Positions 3,740-13,545 of a DNA stretch of 16,201 nt are shown here, in pieces. Numbering within the stretch: the stretch's first letter is position 1; each line of letters opens with the position of its first letter. Source of the DNA: Microcaldota archaeon (lineage in GTDB: Archaea; Micrarchaeota; Micrarchaeia; Micrarchaeales; Micrarchaeaceae); assembly GCA_021810685.1 (NCBI GenBank), contig JAJZII010000007.1:1-16201 (forward strand), written 5' to 3'. A program made the position numbers and the translations under genes. The notes under the pieces are model-generated. The model searched no databases. It was not told the DNA's origin and saw nothing but the letters and a program-made list of their open reading frames with translations.

Positions 3740-3811
3740 GGGCCTGTAGTCCAACGGTCAAGATGCCAGCCTTACACGCTAGAGACCGGAGTTCGACTCT
3801 CCGCAGGCCCA
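3740..3811 (+). tRNA. tRNA-Val(UAC)
   Basis: A full cloverleaf folds. The acceptor GGGCCTG (3740-3746) pairs with CAGGCCC (3804-3810), with discriminator A 3811 and no encoded CCA. The D arm is GTCC/AGAT with GG in the loop. The anticodon loop CTTACAC carries TAC at 3773-3775, which reads GUA (Val). The variable loop has 4 nt. The T arm is CGGAG-TTCGACT-CTCCG. The anticodon stem CCAGC/GCTAG has one C-A mismatch (28-42), and 13-22 is also unpaired. No intron is present. It lies 9 bp after the aminotransferase stop. Confidence 0.95.
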
Positions 3812-9816: not shown

Positions 9817-12123
9817 CTATGCGCTTCCGATTACCGTCGGGCCGTTCGCCGCCTTGTCGCGGTCCAATACGAATATGCGTGCGTTGCTTATCTGCTTGAG
9901 GCTCTCGTCGTGCGTGATTATGAATATCTGCTCGACTATATCCGGAAGTGAGCTCCCGAAGACGTCGATGAGCTTGCCTATTCCTGCGCTGTCTATGTTA
10001 TGCGTCGGCTCGTCAAGTATTAGCCAGCGCAGGTTCGGCACTATCACCATCGCCATCGCTATGCGCAGCGTAAGGCAGGCAACGCTCCGCTCCCCCCCGC
10101 TCGCGACCGAGTTAACAGGCGCCCACTCGCTGGTGCCGTCTGTGCCGACGTCGGCTACGAGCTCATAGTCTCCGTTTTCGGCGTTGAGCATTATGCCGGC
10201 ATAGTCGCCATACGGGTAGAGTGACGGCCACAGCCCCTGCATGAGCTCGTTTATCGAAGTGACGAGGCGTGCCCTCAGCATTGTCTCAGTCGAAACTATC
10301 GCCTCCTTAAACTTGTTCATATTCTTGACGCGCTCCCTGCGCAGCTCTATGCGCCTCTCCATTCCTGTGTACGTCTCCAGCTCCTTCCTGCGCTCTTCGA
10401 GCTGCGCCTTCACGCTCCTAGCGTGGAGCTCCATGCTCGCGTGCCTTTCCCTGGCGCCGCTGAGCTTCGCTGACTGTTCAGTGAACGAACCCTGTAGCGC
10501 GTCAAGCTGCTTGTCGTCGACCTTTATGCTCTCGAGCTCCACCGCTGCCTTCTCAAGCTCAGAATCTGCCCGCGCCTTCTCCATTTCGTGGCCTTTCAGG
10601 CGCTCCAGCGCCTCCTCCCTGCTCTTCAGGTCGCGCAGCGCGTTCTTTCGCGCTTCTGCATTCTTGTCCATCCTCCCGAGCACTGCCTCCTTCTCCTTCA
10701 ACTCCTCCTTTCCTTTCGTGAGCTTCTCCTTGGCTTTCTCCAGTTCCTCATCGAGGCCCTTGTAATCTTTAAGCTTGTCGAGCGCGAACTGCAGCTCCTG
10801 CACCTGCTTGTCAAGCTCTGTGATGAGCCTCTCCTTCTCCTTTGCCATCTTCGAGCTCGACTCTATGCCGGCGCCGAGGTCGCGCAGCAGCGCCTCCTTG
10901 CTGGCAAGGAGCTTCTTGCGCAGCTCAGGCTCAAGCTCCCTTTCGCACACGGGACACTTGCCACCGACATGCTTGCCTAGTTCCTTGAGCCATTCGTTGA
11001 CCTCGTCGTGCCTGCTCCTGCTGGCCGCTATCTCTCCGGCGAGCTTCTGCAGCCCGATCTTCTCCTTCTCCAGCGAGGCTGCGAGTGCCTTATCTTCCTT
11101 GCCCTTTGTTTTCTCAATAAGCGCGTCGCGGACCCTGGCCTTCTTTTCTGCCTCTATAATGAAAGAACCAGTTTCGGCCACAGCCTTCTGTGCGGCGGAC
11201 CACTCCCTCTTTGCCTTGTCAACCTCCTCTGTTGCAAGTTTGTCTTCTGCTAGCGCCTTCTCGCGCTCCTTTCGGAGCGCTTCCCCATCAATCTTCATGG
11301 CCTTGAGCTTCTCCATCTCAGCCTTGATGGTCGCGGACCTGCTGCGCAGCCCCTCTATCTTCGTCCTGAGCTCCACCTTCTTCGCGTTCTCGCGCTTGAG
11401 CCTTTCGAGCTCCTCCTTCGTCTTGGCGGATTGCTCCTTCAGTGCGCTTTCCTCAGCCTTCGCCTCTGCGCCCTCCTTCGAGATTTTCTCGAATTCCTTC
11501 TCTAGCTCTGCCACCTTTTCCTTTATAGCAGGGACGCTCATGTTTTCGAGCATCTGCTCGTCCTCCTTCACCATGCCCTTCATGCTGTTTATCAGCGACG
11601 TCGCATTGTCCTCGACGGCCGCGAAGTGGTCGAGCCCGAGCATCTCGTCTATTTGGTGCTTCCTGCTCTTCTTGTCGAGCTCCAGGAAGTACTCGAGATT
11701 GTTCTGCTCTGCATACACTGCCCTGGAGAATGTGTCGTAGCCTATCTTGAGAACATTGCACACTTCCTCTGTGACGCGCTCCGGCTGCGTCTGGAGATAT
11801 TCACCGTTCTTTTCGAGCTTCGCGCCGCTCGTCTTACCCTTCTGTATCGTGCGCGTCACGGTGTATTCGTCGCCGCCAGAGTCAAATACGAGCTTGACCT
11901 CGGCATCGGTGAGTACCGTCGGCCTGCTGGTCGGTATGTCGCTTATCTTTACGCGCCTGTGCTCAAGAGCCGGGAAGCTTCCGAAGAGTGCGAACGATAT
12001 CGCGTCCATTATCGAGCTCTTGCCTGCGCCCATAAGCCCTATTAGCACGTTGACGCCCTTCTGGAACTCGAGCATGCTGTGCTGGTGGGTCTTCCAGTTC
12101 CTGAGCTCTATGGACCTTATCAC
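9817..12123 (-). CDS. rad50: DNA double-strand break repair ATPase Rad50
   Basis: 768 residues from GTG 12123. SMC-like ABC ATPase that works with Mre11 in break processing. It shows IRSIELRNWKTH, Walker A GLMGAGKSS (29-37), AEQNNLEYFL (Q-loop), two long Lys/Glu-rich coiled coils, the zinc-hook CPVC (C390, C393) at their apex, the ABC signature SGGER (about 675-679), Walker B LILDEPT (about 701-707), and the ITHDE switch His. In Walker A, Met stands where most Rad50 proteins have Asn. The coils are short (archaeal Rad50 is usually about 850-900). The frame is open to 12192, but those codons (MEAHPFRGGR...) are IS terminal sequence. GTG 12123 with GAGG 8 nt upstream gives the normal N-terminus. 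No mre11, herA or nurA is adjacent. Confidence 0.95.
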   Translation of the reverse strand: MIRSIELRNWKTHQHSMLEFQKGVNVLIGLMGAGKSSIMDAISFALFGSFPALEHRRVKISDIPTSRPTVLTDAEVKLVFDSGGDEYTVTRTIQKGKTSGAKLEKNGEYLQTQPERVTEEVCNVLKIGYDTFSRAVYAEQNNLEYFLELDKKSRKHQIDEMLGLDHFAAVEDNATSLINSMKGMVKEDEQMLENMSVPAIKEKVAELEKEFEKISKEGAEAKAEESALKEQSAKTKEELERLKRENAKKVELRTKIEGLRSRSATIKAEMEKLKAMKIDGEALRKEREKALAEDKLATEEVDKAKREWSAAQKAVAETGSFIIEAEKKARVRDALIEKTKGKEDKALAASLEKEKIGLQKLAGEIAASRSRHDEVNEWLKELGKHVGGKCPVCERELEPELRKKLLASKEALLRDLGAGIESSSKMAKEKERLITELDKQVQELQFALDKLKDYKGLDEELEKAKEKLTKGKEELKEKEAVLGRMDKNAEARKNALRDLKSREEALERLKGHEMEKARADSELEKAAVELESIKVDDKQLDALQGSFTEQSAKLSGARERHASMELHARSVKAQLEERRKELETYTGMERRIELRRERVKNMNKFKEAIVSTETMLRARLVTSINELMQGLWPSLYPYGDYAGIMLNAENGDYELVADVGTDGTSEWAPVNSVASGGERSVACLTLRIAMAMVIVPNLRWLILDEPTHNIDSAGIGKLIDVFGSSLPDIVEQIFIITHDESLKQISNARIFVLDRDKAANGPTVIGSA

Positions 12124-12155
12124 AAAATCAGCCTCTGATTGTGCGCGCCAGTTGG

Positions 12156-12330
12156 GTGACATCCTCCCACCCCTGAAGGGGTGGGCTTCCATGGTGGCTA
12201 TGATTGGTCGTCATGATGCCACCCATATAGTTCCTGATTCATCGGCAACCGCCTCCCTTGCGGAAGGTCTTACGTCGTCTCCAGAGGCTTGACTTCCCGA
12301 ATGCCCTTCGGTAGTTGAACTTTTTTCAAG
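12156..12330 (-). ncRNA. Predicted omega-RNA (reRNA) of TnpB
   Basis: In TnpB systems a guide RNA scaffold is made from the 3' end of tnpB plus the right end of the element, and the guide is the flanking host sequence. Here the tnpB 3' end (coding GHSGSQASGDDVRPS...DESGT, a tail common in this family because the DNA is also RNA scaffold) runs into the right-end hairpin. The scaffold would end near 12156 and the guide would begin CCAACTGGCGCGCAC, in the rad50 leader. The 5' boundary at 12330 is a guess. Confidence 0.45.
12166..12185 (-). repeat. Right-end hairpin of the IS element
   Basis: CCCACCCC-TTCA-GGGGTGGG on the minus strand is a perfect 8-bp stem with a tetraloop. It lies 26 nt after the tnpB stop and is followed by GGAGGATGTCAC. 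It is both the terminal hairpin of the element and the likely last stem of the omega-RNA. Confidence 0.85.
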
Positions 12331-13419
12331 TCCAATCCTCAATATATTTATAGACGCATTCAAATCCCTGTCGATTTGCAATCCGCATCTGCCGCAGATG
12401 TAGACTGTTGCGCCTTTTTCCACTTCCTGTATGTTCCTGCATTCGTTGCATGTCTGCGTGGTATATTGTGGAGGTACATCAACCACTCTGCAACCAGCGC
12501 TTTCAGCCTTGTAGCAAAGGAATTGCGTGAACCTGCTCCACGATACGTCGTTGATGGATTTAGCATAATGATGATTCTTGGCCATATTCTGGACTTGCAG
12601 GTCTTCGTATGCAATGAAGGAATATGATCTGACGAGGCTGATGGAAAGCTTGTGGGCAAAATCGTTCCGCCTGTTTGCAATGGATTCGGAAAGCCTTGCG
12701 AATTTCAATACTGCCTTGTGTCTGTTCACTGAACCTTTCTGTTTTCTGGAGATTCTTTGTTGCAACCTTTTCGCCTTCTTTCGTGATTGTTTTCCGAATC
12801 GAAGGTTGGGAATCTTCGTATTATCTGAAAGAGTTGCATATTCCCGTAAACCCAAATCAAGCCCTATCTGTGGTTTATTATTTGATGCGAATCCCATAGC
12901 CTCCTTTTCCACCGATATCGTTATGTACCATTCTCCCGACTTTGTTTTCTTGATCGTGCACGTCTTTGGTTTGCCTTCGATATCCCTATGGTTGACGAAA
13001 TTTATCCTGCCTGCCTTTGAGAGTTCGACTCTCTTCTTTTCTATCCTGAAACCGTTAGCCTGGGGATATGTCAGCGATGATACGAACTTCTTATATCGTG
13101 GAAACCCAACCTTTACCTTTTTGCCTTGCTTCTTTTCTCTGCACCTTCTGAAGAAGTGCCTGTATGCGTCGGATACCCTTCTTGAGACATTCTGGAGGAC
13201 TTGGGAATGAAGTTCACTGAACTCAGGCCTTTCCTTCTTCATCTGCGTTATCCAGATGTTCATCCTGTATTCTGTGAGTGTTTTCCCTGTTTCCTTGTAG
13301 TATGCCTTTGATCTTTCAAGGAGGATGTTGTAGAGTTCCTTTGCAATAAACATCTGTTTATCGAGGGTTTCCTTCTGCGCCTTTGAAGGATATGCACGAT
13401 ATTTATATGCAGTTTTCAC
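12211..13419 (-). CDS. tnpB: TnpB, RNA-guided endonuclease of IS605/IS1341 family
   Basis: 402 residues from GTG 13419, full length for TnpB. N-terminus VKTAYKYRAYPSKAQ; GFPRYKKF; RuvC-I IGLDLGLREYATLS with Asp 188; RuvC-II FIAYEDLQVQNM with Glu 272; zinc ribbon C324-NE-C327 ... C342-GR-C345; RuvC-III IDRDLNASINI with Asp 352. All three catalytic acids are present, so the nuclease is probably active. TnpB is the ancestor-like relative of Cas12. A longer frame to ATG 13479 runs through the left-end hairpins. GTG 13419 lies 6 nt after the start predicted from a TATA box inside the left end (13446-13456), so that start is preferred. Codons are AT-rich (AAA, TTT, ATT) compared with neighbours, a sign of transfer. 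Confidence 0.93.
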   Translation of the reverse strand: MKTAYKYRAYPSKAQKETLDKQMFIAKELYNILLERSKAYYKETGKTLTEYRMNIWITQMKKERPEFSELHSQVLQNVSRRVSDAYRHFFRRCREKKQGKKVKVGFPRYKKFVSSLTYPQANGFRIEKKRVELSKAGRINFVNHRDIEGKPKTCTIKKTKSGEWYITISVEKEAMGFASNNKPQIGLDLGLREYATLSDNTKIPNLRFGKQSRKKAKRLQQRISRKQKGSVNRHKAVLKFARLSESIANRRNDFAHKLSISLVRSYSFIAYEDLQVQNMAKNHHYAKSINDVSWSRFTQFLCYKAESAGCRVVDVPPQYTTQTCNECRNIQEVEKGATVYICGRCGLQIDRDLNASINILRIGLEKSSTTEGHSGSQASGDDVRPSAREAVADESGTIWVAS

Positions 13420-13445
13420 GGCGACCGTATTTATTACGCTTTTTG

Positions 13446-13508
13446 TATTTATATATGTTGCAGTGGGCTTATATCCCATCGCTAAAGCGTGTGGGTTTTA
13501 CGCCCACA
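13446..13508 (-). promoter_or_regulatory. IS left end: hairpins and internal tnpB promoter
   Basis: Read on the minus strand this segment has the hairpin TGTGGG-CGTAAAA-CCCACA (13490-13508), CGCTTTAGCG, a second stem TGGG-ATATAAG-CCCA (13464-13478), and then the TATA box ATATATAAATAC (about 13446-13456). The TATA centre is about 26 bp before 13425, just ahead of GTG 13419. Confidence 0.6.
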
Positions 13509-13545
13509 TAGATAAAAAAGGTACTGCACGCGCAGCGGAACAGGG

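Follow-up and report, generated by a model that had tools for sequence, protein, structure and literature searches.

Immediately upstream of rad50, in the window analysed here (the whole stretch of DNA, 16,201 nucleotides long), lies a tnpB gene reading in the same direction. This raises the question of whether an RNA-guided nuclease has been coupled to a gene of double-strand-break repair, or whether rad50 is simply a place where such elements land. The second answer is the one favoured here, with a probability of roughly 0.8: the element was inserted, directed by its target motif, at the TATA-like box of rad50, which is an ordinary, repeatedly used landing site and no designed partner. The features concerned are the following.

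9817..12123, minus strand: rad50, with its GTG start at 12123, on the same strand as tnpB
12121..12155, minus strand: leader of rad50 (32 nt) together with the GTG start codon, placed by the starts of Rad50 homologues
12136..12155, minus strand: native guide of 20 nt, CCAACTGGCGCGCACAATCA, equal to the rad50 5' leader and following the right-end tail
12156..12167, minus strand: conserved right-end tail GGAGGATGTCAC, directly before the guide, from the right-end consensus
12166..12185, minus strand: hairpin of the right end, predicted to form the 3' part of the omega-RNA scaffold, from covariation and fold
12211..13419 (or to 13479), minus strand: tnpB, with a GTG start at 13419 and the RuvC residues D, E, D kept
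13447..13455, minus strand: TATA-like box of tnpB within the element, TATATAAAT; many related elements have similar stretches in a comparable position
13465..13511, minus strand: left end with hairpin TGTGGGCGTAAAACCCACA; similar left ends occur in loci L142, L230, L244 and L248
12156..13511, minus strand: whole element, running from its left end (13511) to its right end (12156), from the left- and right-end consensus of related copies
13512..13523, minus strand: TATA-like box of rad50, TACCTTTTTTAT, in the left flank, aligned with TACCTTTTTATA of locus L001
13546..13791, minus strand: elongation factor 1-beta (EF1-beta) gene, usually found upstream of rad50

The element in front of rad50

Positions 12156-13511 of the minus strand are occupied by a solo-tnpB element of the IS200/IS605 type, 1,356 bp in size, whose ends were derived from the consensus over related copies. 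It has the subterminal hairpins and conserved ends of IS200/IS605 elements and is inserted 3' of a fixed short motif (the TAM), which in the window is TTTAT. The tnpA gene (Y1 transposase) of autonomous IS200/IS605 elements is absent from it, and can be ruled out because within 12156-13511 tnpB is flanked by only about 92 nt on its 5' side and 55 nt on its 3' side. The left end is recognised by its hairpin and is directly preceded by TTTAT (13516-13512), while the right end consists of a hairpin (12185-12166) followed by GGATGTCAC. Among 17 sequences, 94.8% of the cells of this hairpin are paired and two-sided changes occur in seven of the eight pairs, a covariation that exceeds both shuffled and slid controls and that puts the element itself beyond doubt. 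The fold of 12137-12357 gives z = -2.54; no omega-RNA family was detected in the window by Rfam at gathering scores.

The boundary between element and guide was set by comparison. GGATG(T/C)CA is found downstream of tnpB in 79 of 170 tnpB loci (one of these right ends, that of L160, lies 185 nt past tnpB and probably matches by chance); the base after it is C in 73 of the 79, and the following one is variable (A 39, C 16, T 12, G 12). The conserved motif plus C, followed by a variable base, places the element end at 12156 and the guide start at 12155. A right end about 33 bp from the rad50 GTG had been proposed, and the distance obtained from the 79 loci is 32 nt. According to a published study (PMC11043419), the guide comes right after the right-end tail; read in this way, the guide at 12155-12136 (CCAACTGGCGCGCACAATCA) agrees with the CCAACTGGCGCGCAC of the original prediction, whose two further statements, that the native guide is the rad50 leader and that tnpB and rad50 are codirectional (both on the minus strand), are borne out as well. 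A Shine-Dalgarno-like GGAGG is embedded in the tail GGAGGATGTCAC.

On the minus strand, the order of the genes is EF1-beta (13791-13546), the TnpB element and rad50 from the GTG at 12123. Two close Rad50 homologues (P0002 and P0003) begin at the position of this GTG, with M-I-R-S. A longer, 791-aa rad50 reading from 12192, which extends back into the right end of the element, was discarded as an artefact of the ORF caller. The window is from a Micrarchaeota-like archaeon: the database matches of its Rad50 are proteins named Marsarchaeota/Micrarchaeota, and the neighbouring genes of the window encode FtsZ, Dph2, EF1-beta and a Lon_C protein; a tRNA gene is located at 3740-3811 on the plus strand.

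The TnpB protein contains OrfB_IS605, Cas12f1-like TNB and HTH domains, all passing the curated cut-offs, and reaches 288.6 bits with the guided_TnpB model NF040570 against a cut-off of 100. Its best natural PDB matches (8bf8, 8ex9, 8exa and 8h1j, which we take to be structures of ISDra2 TnpB) cover residues 4-385 of 402, and the RuvC residues D, E, D are all intact. The protein is predicted to bind an omega-RNA and to perform RNA-guided cleavage.

As for the insertion site, the last five bases of TACCTTTTTTAT (13512-13516) are TTTAT, that is, the TAM or target motif itself. Upstream of rad50 in L001, the closest relative compared with an uninterrupted upstream region, although with a rad50 just 59% identical, TACCTTTTTATA aligns with the TACCTTTTTTAT of the window; the TATA-like box of rad50 is now 1.36 kb from the rad50 start. 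The uninterrupted allele is known solely as a protein, the public Rad50 P0001, which is 100% identical over the query and whose N-terminus (...LSNWRAQSEAGF) agrees with a reading across the joined flanks (...LSNWRAQSEADF) and disagrees with that of the occupied site (MSPNWRAQSEADF). Since its residues farther upstream (MNGH) mismatch the left flank of the window, P0001 is supportive of an uninterrupted allele and no proof of it.

Between tnpB and rad50, no stem-plus-T-run terminator was found by a scan blind to stemless archaeal T-run terminators, and the sole run of at least four T is the TTTT right before the GTG. The suggestion that tnpB, omega-RNA and rad50 might share one transcript is plausible, given the lack of a stem terminator and the position of the element between a TATA-like box and a start codon, and it is from this layout that we infer it.

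Target motif, position and polarity of tnpB elements in Micrarchaeota

The survey included 170 distinct tnpB ORFs, each 330 aa or longer, from Micrarchaeota genomes, i.e., high-scoring matches, the two loci fetched through rad50 (L079 and L136) and the window; at least three full-length places (G138:C32, G063:C66 and G170:C52) and several partial matches within long open frames lie outside it. Eighty-seven loci were assigned to class A by a looser pattern, 53 of them with a recognised left end (types 1, 1b and 2) and 52 with enough flank for the insertion site to be reconstructed by joining the flanks. Of the 63 left ends recognised, 46 are directly preceded by the exact motif NTTA[TA], and TGATAA precedes five elements with a different type of left end. 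The target motif of the family, TTTAT/TTTAA, is also promoter-like in archaea; in 732 genes, same-strand TTTA[TA] peaks 20-45 nt before the ATG. The opposite-strand motif likewise rises 30-40 nt before starts, so that the orientation of the elements is not set by the motif alone.

The reconstructed sites are intergenic in 39 of 52 cases, with a codirectional next gene in 34 of the 39, and are located inside called ORFs in the other 13. With gene starts taken from a simple ORF caller, 23 of the 52 elements are followed within 60 nt by a codirectional start, versus 447 of 6,175 TTTA[TA] control sites drawn from the 80 rad50 loci L001-L080 (Fisher, 4e-13); when just intergenic sites are considered, the figures are 23 of 39 versus 447 of 1,878 (4e-6). 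The window belongs to the 52 sites and is missing from the 23, because the ORF caller accepted ATG starts only. The elements are also polar, with 23 right ends and four left ends facing a start, whereas the control motifs are symmetric (500 vs 456).

These comparisons bear on the view that chance insertion would be the simpler reading of the locus. Elements of the IS200/IS605 family are indeed common: at least 362 tnpB hits were obtained in 301 genomes, 147 of which have a hit at E <= 1e-30. Nevertheless, position and polarity are so unlike those of motif-matched controls that a purely random insertion into an intergenic gap, with no preference for promoters or leaders, is very improbable. That earlier view comes near and is incomplete, in that a promoter-like motif picks the site and rad50 has been hit repeatedly.

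The direction of the next ORF varies with the type of tail. It is codirectional in 64 cases and otherwise in 15 with GGAGG-type tails, the bias being weaker with other TCAC-type tails (42 and 25; Fisher P = 0.016) and absent where no tail is recognised (9 and 9); by class, the codirectional and remaining cases are 70/16 in A, 26/19 in B and 21/14 in N. A domain scan of 108 of 109 downstream neighbours (L136 left out, the window having been excluded earlier) disclosed, among the codirectional ones, matches to AlaRS, GatD, RtcB, PGK, HMG-CoA reductase and CTP synthase. The genes downstream of these elements presumably still need to be expressed. The placement might reflect survival only, in that an insertion at another place, or one with its left end towards the gene, would silence the gene and be lost; matches to essential gene families among the codirectional neighbours, the polarity of the elements against symmetric controls and the stronger bias with GGAGG-type tails all speak for this explanation, to which we give an even chance. 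It is compatible with motif-directed insertion, of which it forms one part, but taken alone it leaves the recurrence at rad50 unexplained, the density of target motifs per leader being not clearly higher for rad50 (0.77) than for other genes (0.62; P = 0.10).

As judged from these sequences, a guide corresponding to the leader of the next gene is common in Micrarchaeota elements, housekeeping genes included. Since the arrangement also occurs before matches to alanyl-tRNA synthetase, GatD, CTP synthase and PGK, no special purpose is needed for rad50.

Under motif-directed insertion, the events at the window locus were probably as follows. A solo-tnpB element inserted, in the usual manner, right 3' of the TTTAT that ends the TATA-like box of rad50. 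From then on, tnpB, omega-RNA and rad50 would be carried on one read-through transcript, driven by the TATA-like box of the element and/or by the captured rad50 promoter, which TnpB would trim into an omega-RNA with the rad50 leader as its guide. The resulting ribonucleoprotein would cut uninterrupted rad50 promoters (TTTAT followed by CCAACTGG...), favouring the occupied allele, and rad50 would still be expressed from the read-through transcript via its own leader. Owing to the core-promoter-like motif and to the Shine-Dalgarno-like GGAGG at the right end, most surviving copies would be those whose right end faces a start. The simplest account is thus that a promoter-like motif aims the insertion, and that copies with the right end towards the gene survive, the gene being kept active by read-through and the GGAGG tail; anatomy, motif, guide, orientation and polarity can be read directly from the sequences.

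rad50 as a recurrent insertion site

A right end followed by rad50 was found in five of 301 genomes, and the reversed pattern used as a control in none. Besides the window, true elements codirectional with rad50 are present in four of the 301 Micrarchaeota genomes (G012, G022, G044 and G190), a count that leaves aside antisense tnpB pieces upstream of rad50 in L006 and L007 and that may be too low, all five pattern matches lying on the plus strand of their contigs. The fifth match, in G201 (L137, with the same sequence as that upstream of rad50 in L059), has neither a right-end hairpin nor an upstream tnpB and was rejected. The element reaches into the rad50 start codon in L012 and is separated from the ATG by 3 nt in L022 and L136 and by 28 nt in L079; no left-end hairpin was recognisable in G012 and L079. 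The five rad50-adjacent tnpB genes (window included) share 36-68% identity and the corresponding rad50 genes 36-47%, so that most of these are separate events; L022 and L136, having the same position and the same left-end type, could be related.

Two of these loci show further peculiarities. In L012 (5507-5560), the right end of the element falls inside the rad50 start codon, where ACG is now found, with no in-frame ATG, GTG or TTG just upstream of rad50. In L022 (8600-8760), an apparent very short element, made of a left and a right end and lacking tnpB, is located just upstream of the tnpB element of rad50, so that two insertions may be stacked in one EF1-beta to rad50 gap.

The recurrence might suggest that rad50 is a favoured, selected partner, either because the omega-RNA is kept for the regulation of rad50 or because the breaks made by TnpB profit from Rad50. 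Apart from the four genomes, this idea can draw on the fact that rad50 is the most frequent downstream neighbour (five cases, counting the window and L136), and on G012, in which the tnpB at rad50 is the only one found, is open and retains D, E, D, and in whose possibly incomplete assembly no Y1 transposase was found. (The genome set behind this statement includes, as its 44th member, the L079 genome, chosen because its tnpB was already known.) However, the rad50 group drops to three without the window and L136, both of which were known rad50 cases, and other groups of three or four exist, with mixed distance and orientation; the Pfam models DEAD and AAA match three neighbours each, and models of AlaRS, GatD, ScpA and NreA two each. 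Four insertions at one gene do exceed uniform placement, but with a Poisson P ranging from 2e-5 to 0.03 depending on the assumptions, the true P being larger since the 362 hits are a lower bound (at most six candidates per genome were scored). Moreover, the G012 insertion, lying within the rad50 start codon, can hardly be beneficial. A selected partnership is therefore unlikely, and the functional coupling of TnpB to double-strand-break repair that had been proposed finds no support beyond the recurrence itself.

Of the rad50 relatives L001-L080, the best 80 of 431 loci in an alignment-based search, 79 have a rad50 start, and 63 of these have EF1-beta as the same-strand gene upstream of it. 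The gap between the two genes is short (54-185 nt) in 32 of the 63 and at least 200 nt in the other 31, many of which hold differing, unrelated ORFs. With about half of the gaps long and many holding such ORFs, this intergenic stretch may be an insertion hotspot in general, which argues against a selected partnership as well. A greater richness of rad50 leaders in target motifs, also considered, is unsupported at the P = 0.10 given above, and TTTA[TA] occurs within 60 nt in just 39 of 75 rad50 leaders of relatives. A direct search of the genome contigs for near relatives of the window rad50 returned none.

Known TnpB systems and a possible rule

The nearest likeness is with Sulfolobus islandicus, where, in one study, solo tnpB genes go with TTTAT and tnpA plus tnpB with TTTAA (PMC10640517), and where, in another, SisTnpB7 uses TTTAA and has a guide beginning after UUCAC (PMC11043419). 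The solo-tnpB (IS1341-type) elements of S. islandicus REY15A share with the window element a solo tnpB, TTTAT at the left end and a conserved right tail followed by the guide; they differ in the tail, which is GATGTCAC in the window and TTCAC in REY15A, and the window is set apart by a motif that is the TATA-like box of rad50 and by a guide that is a gene leader. ISDra2 TnpB has the same RuvC residues as the window TnpB, but is bacterial and has TTGAT as its TAM, the motif given for DraTnpB in PMC11043419. Archaeal IS200/IS605 omega-RNAs or sotRNAs are described in PMC12558985 as RNAs tied to the 3' end of tnpB, whereas the omega-RNA of the window is a prediction from DNA. Among the papers listed in literature searches on TnpB, IS605 and sotRNA, none makes, by its title or abstract opening, a link between the TAM and the TATA box.

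The element is ordinary, and it is its setting that suggests a rule: if the TAM resembles the archaeal TATA box, guides would often be leaders and targets often promoters. In its full form, the TnpB motif would double as a core-promoter and translation-start signal, elements would capture promoters in a polar manner and bring along a ribosome-binding tail, the next leader would become the guide, rad50 would be a hot target, and G012 would keep an orphan, apparently immobile TnpB at its rad50 start. We put this forward tentatively, as rather unlikely when taken as a whole. The rule offers a testable reason for the orientation of TnpB elements in archaeal genomes and, if true, would make these elements ready-made precursors of RNA-guided regulators; the TnpB of G012 would then be a natural starting point for the RNA-guided control of a repair gene.

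TldRs are nuclease dead, and their guides aim at the 5' region of a gene. The guide of the window likewise corresponds to such a region, but D, E, D are intact and the inactivated RuvC site of a TldR is not found in the window TnpB. TldRs are TnpB-derived RNA-guided transcription factors (PMC13418256, by its listing). In three of the 170 TnpB-like proteins of the survey (L106, L154 and L155), the RuvC glutamate is replaced by G, and in L156 by Q; the right ends of the three former loci read GGATGTCAG in L106 and L154 and GGATGTCAA in L155. From the substituted residue, it is possible that L106, L154 and L155 represent nuclease-dead, TldR-like relatives in Micrarchaeota.
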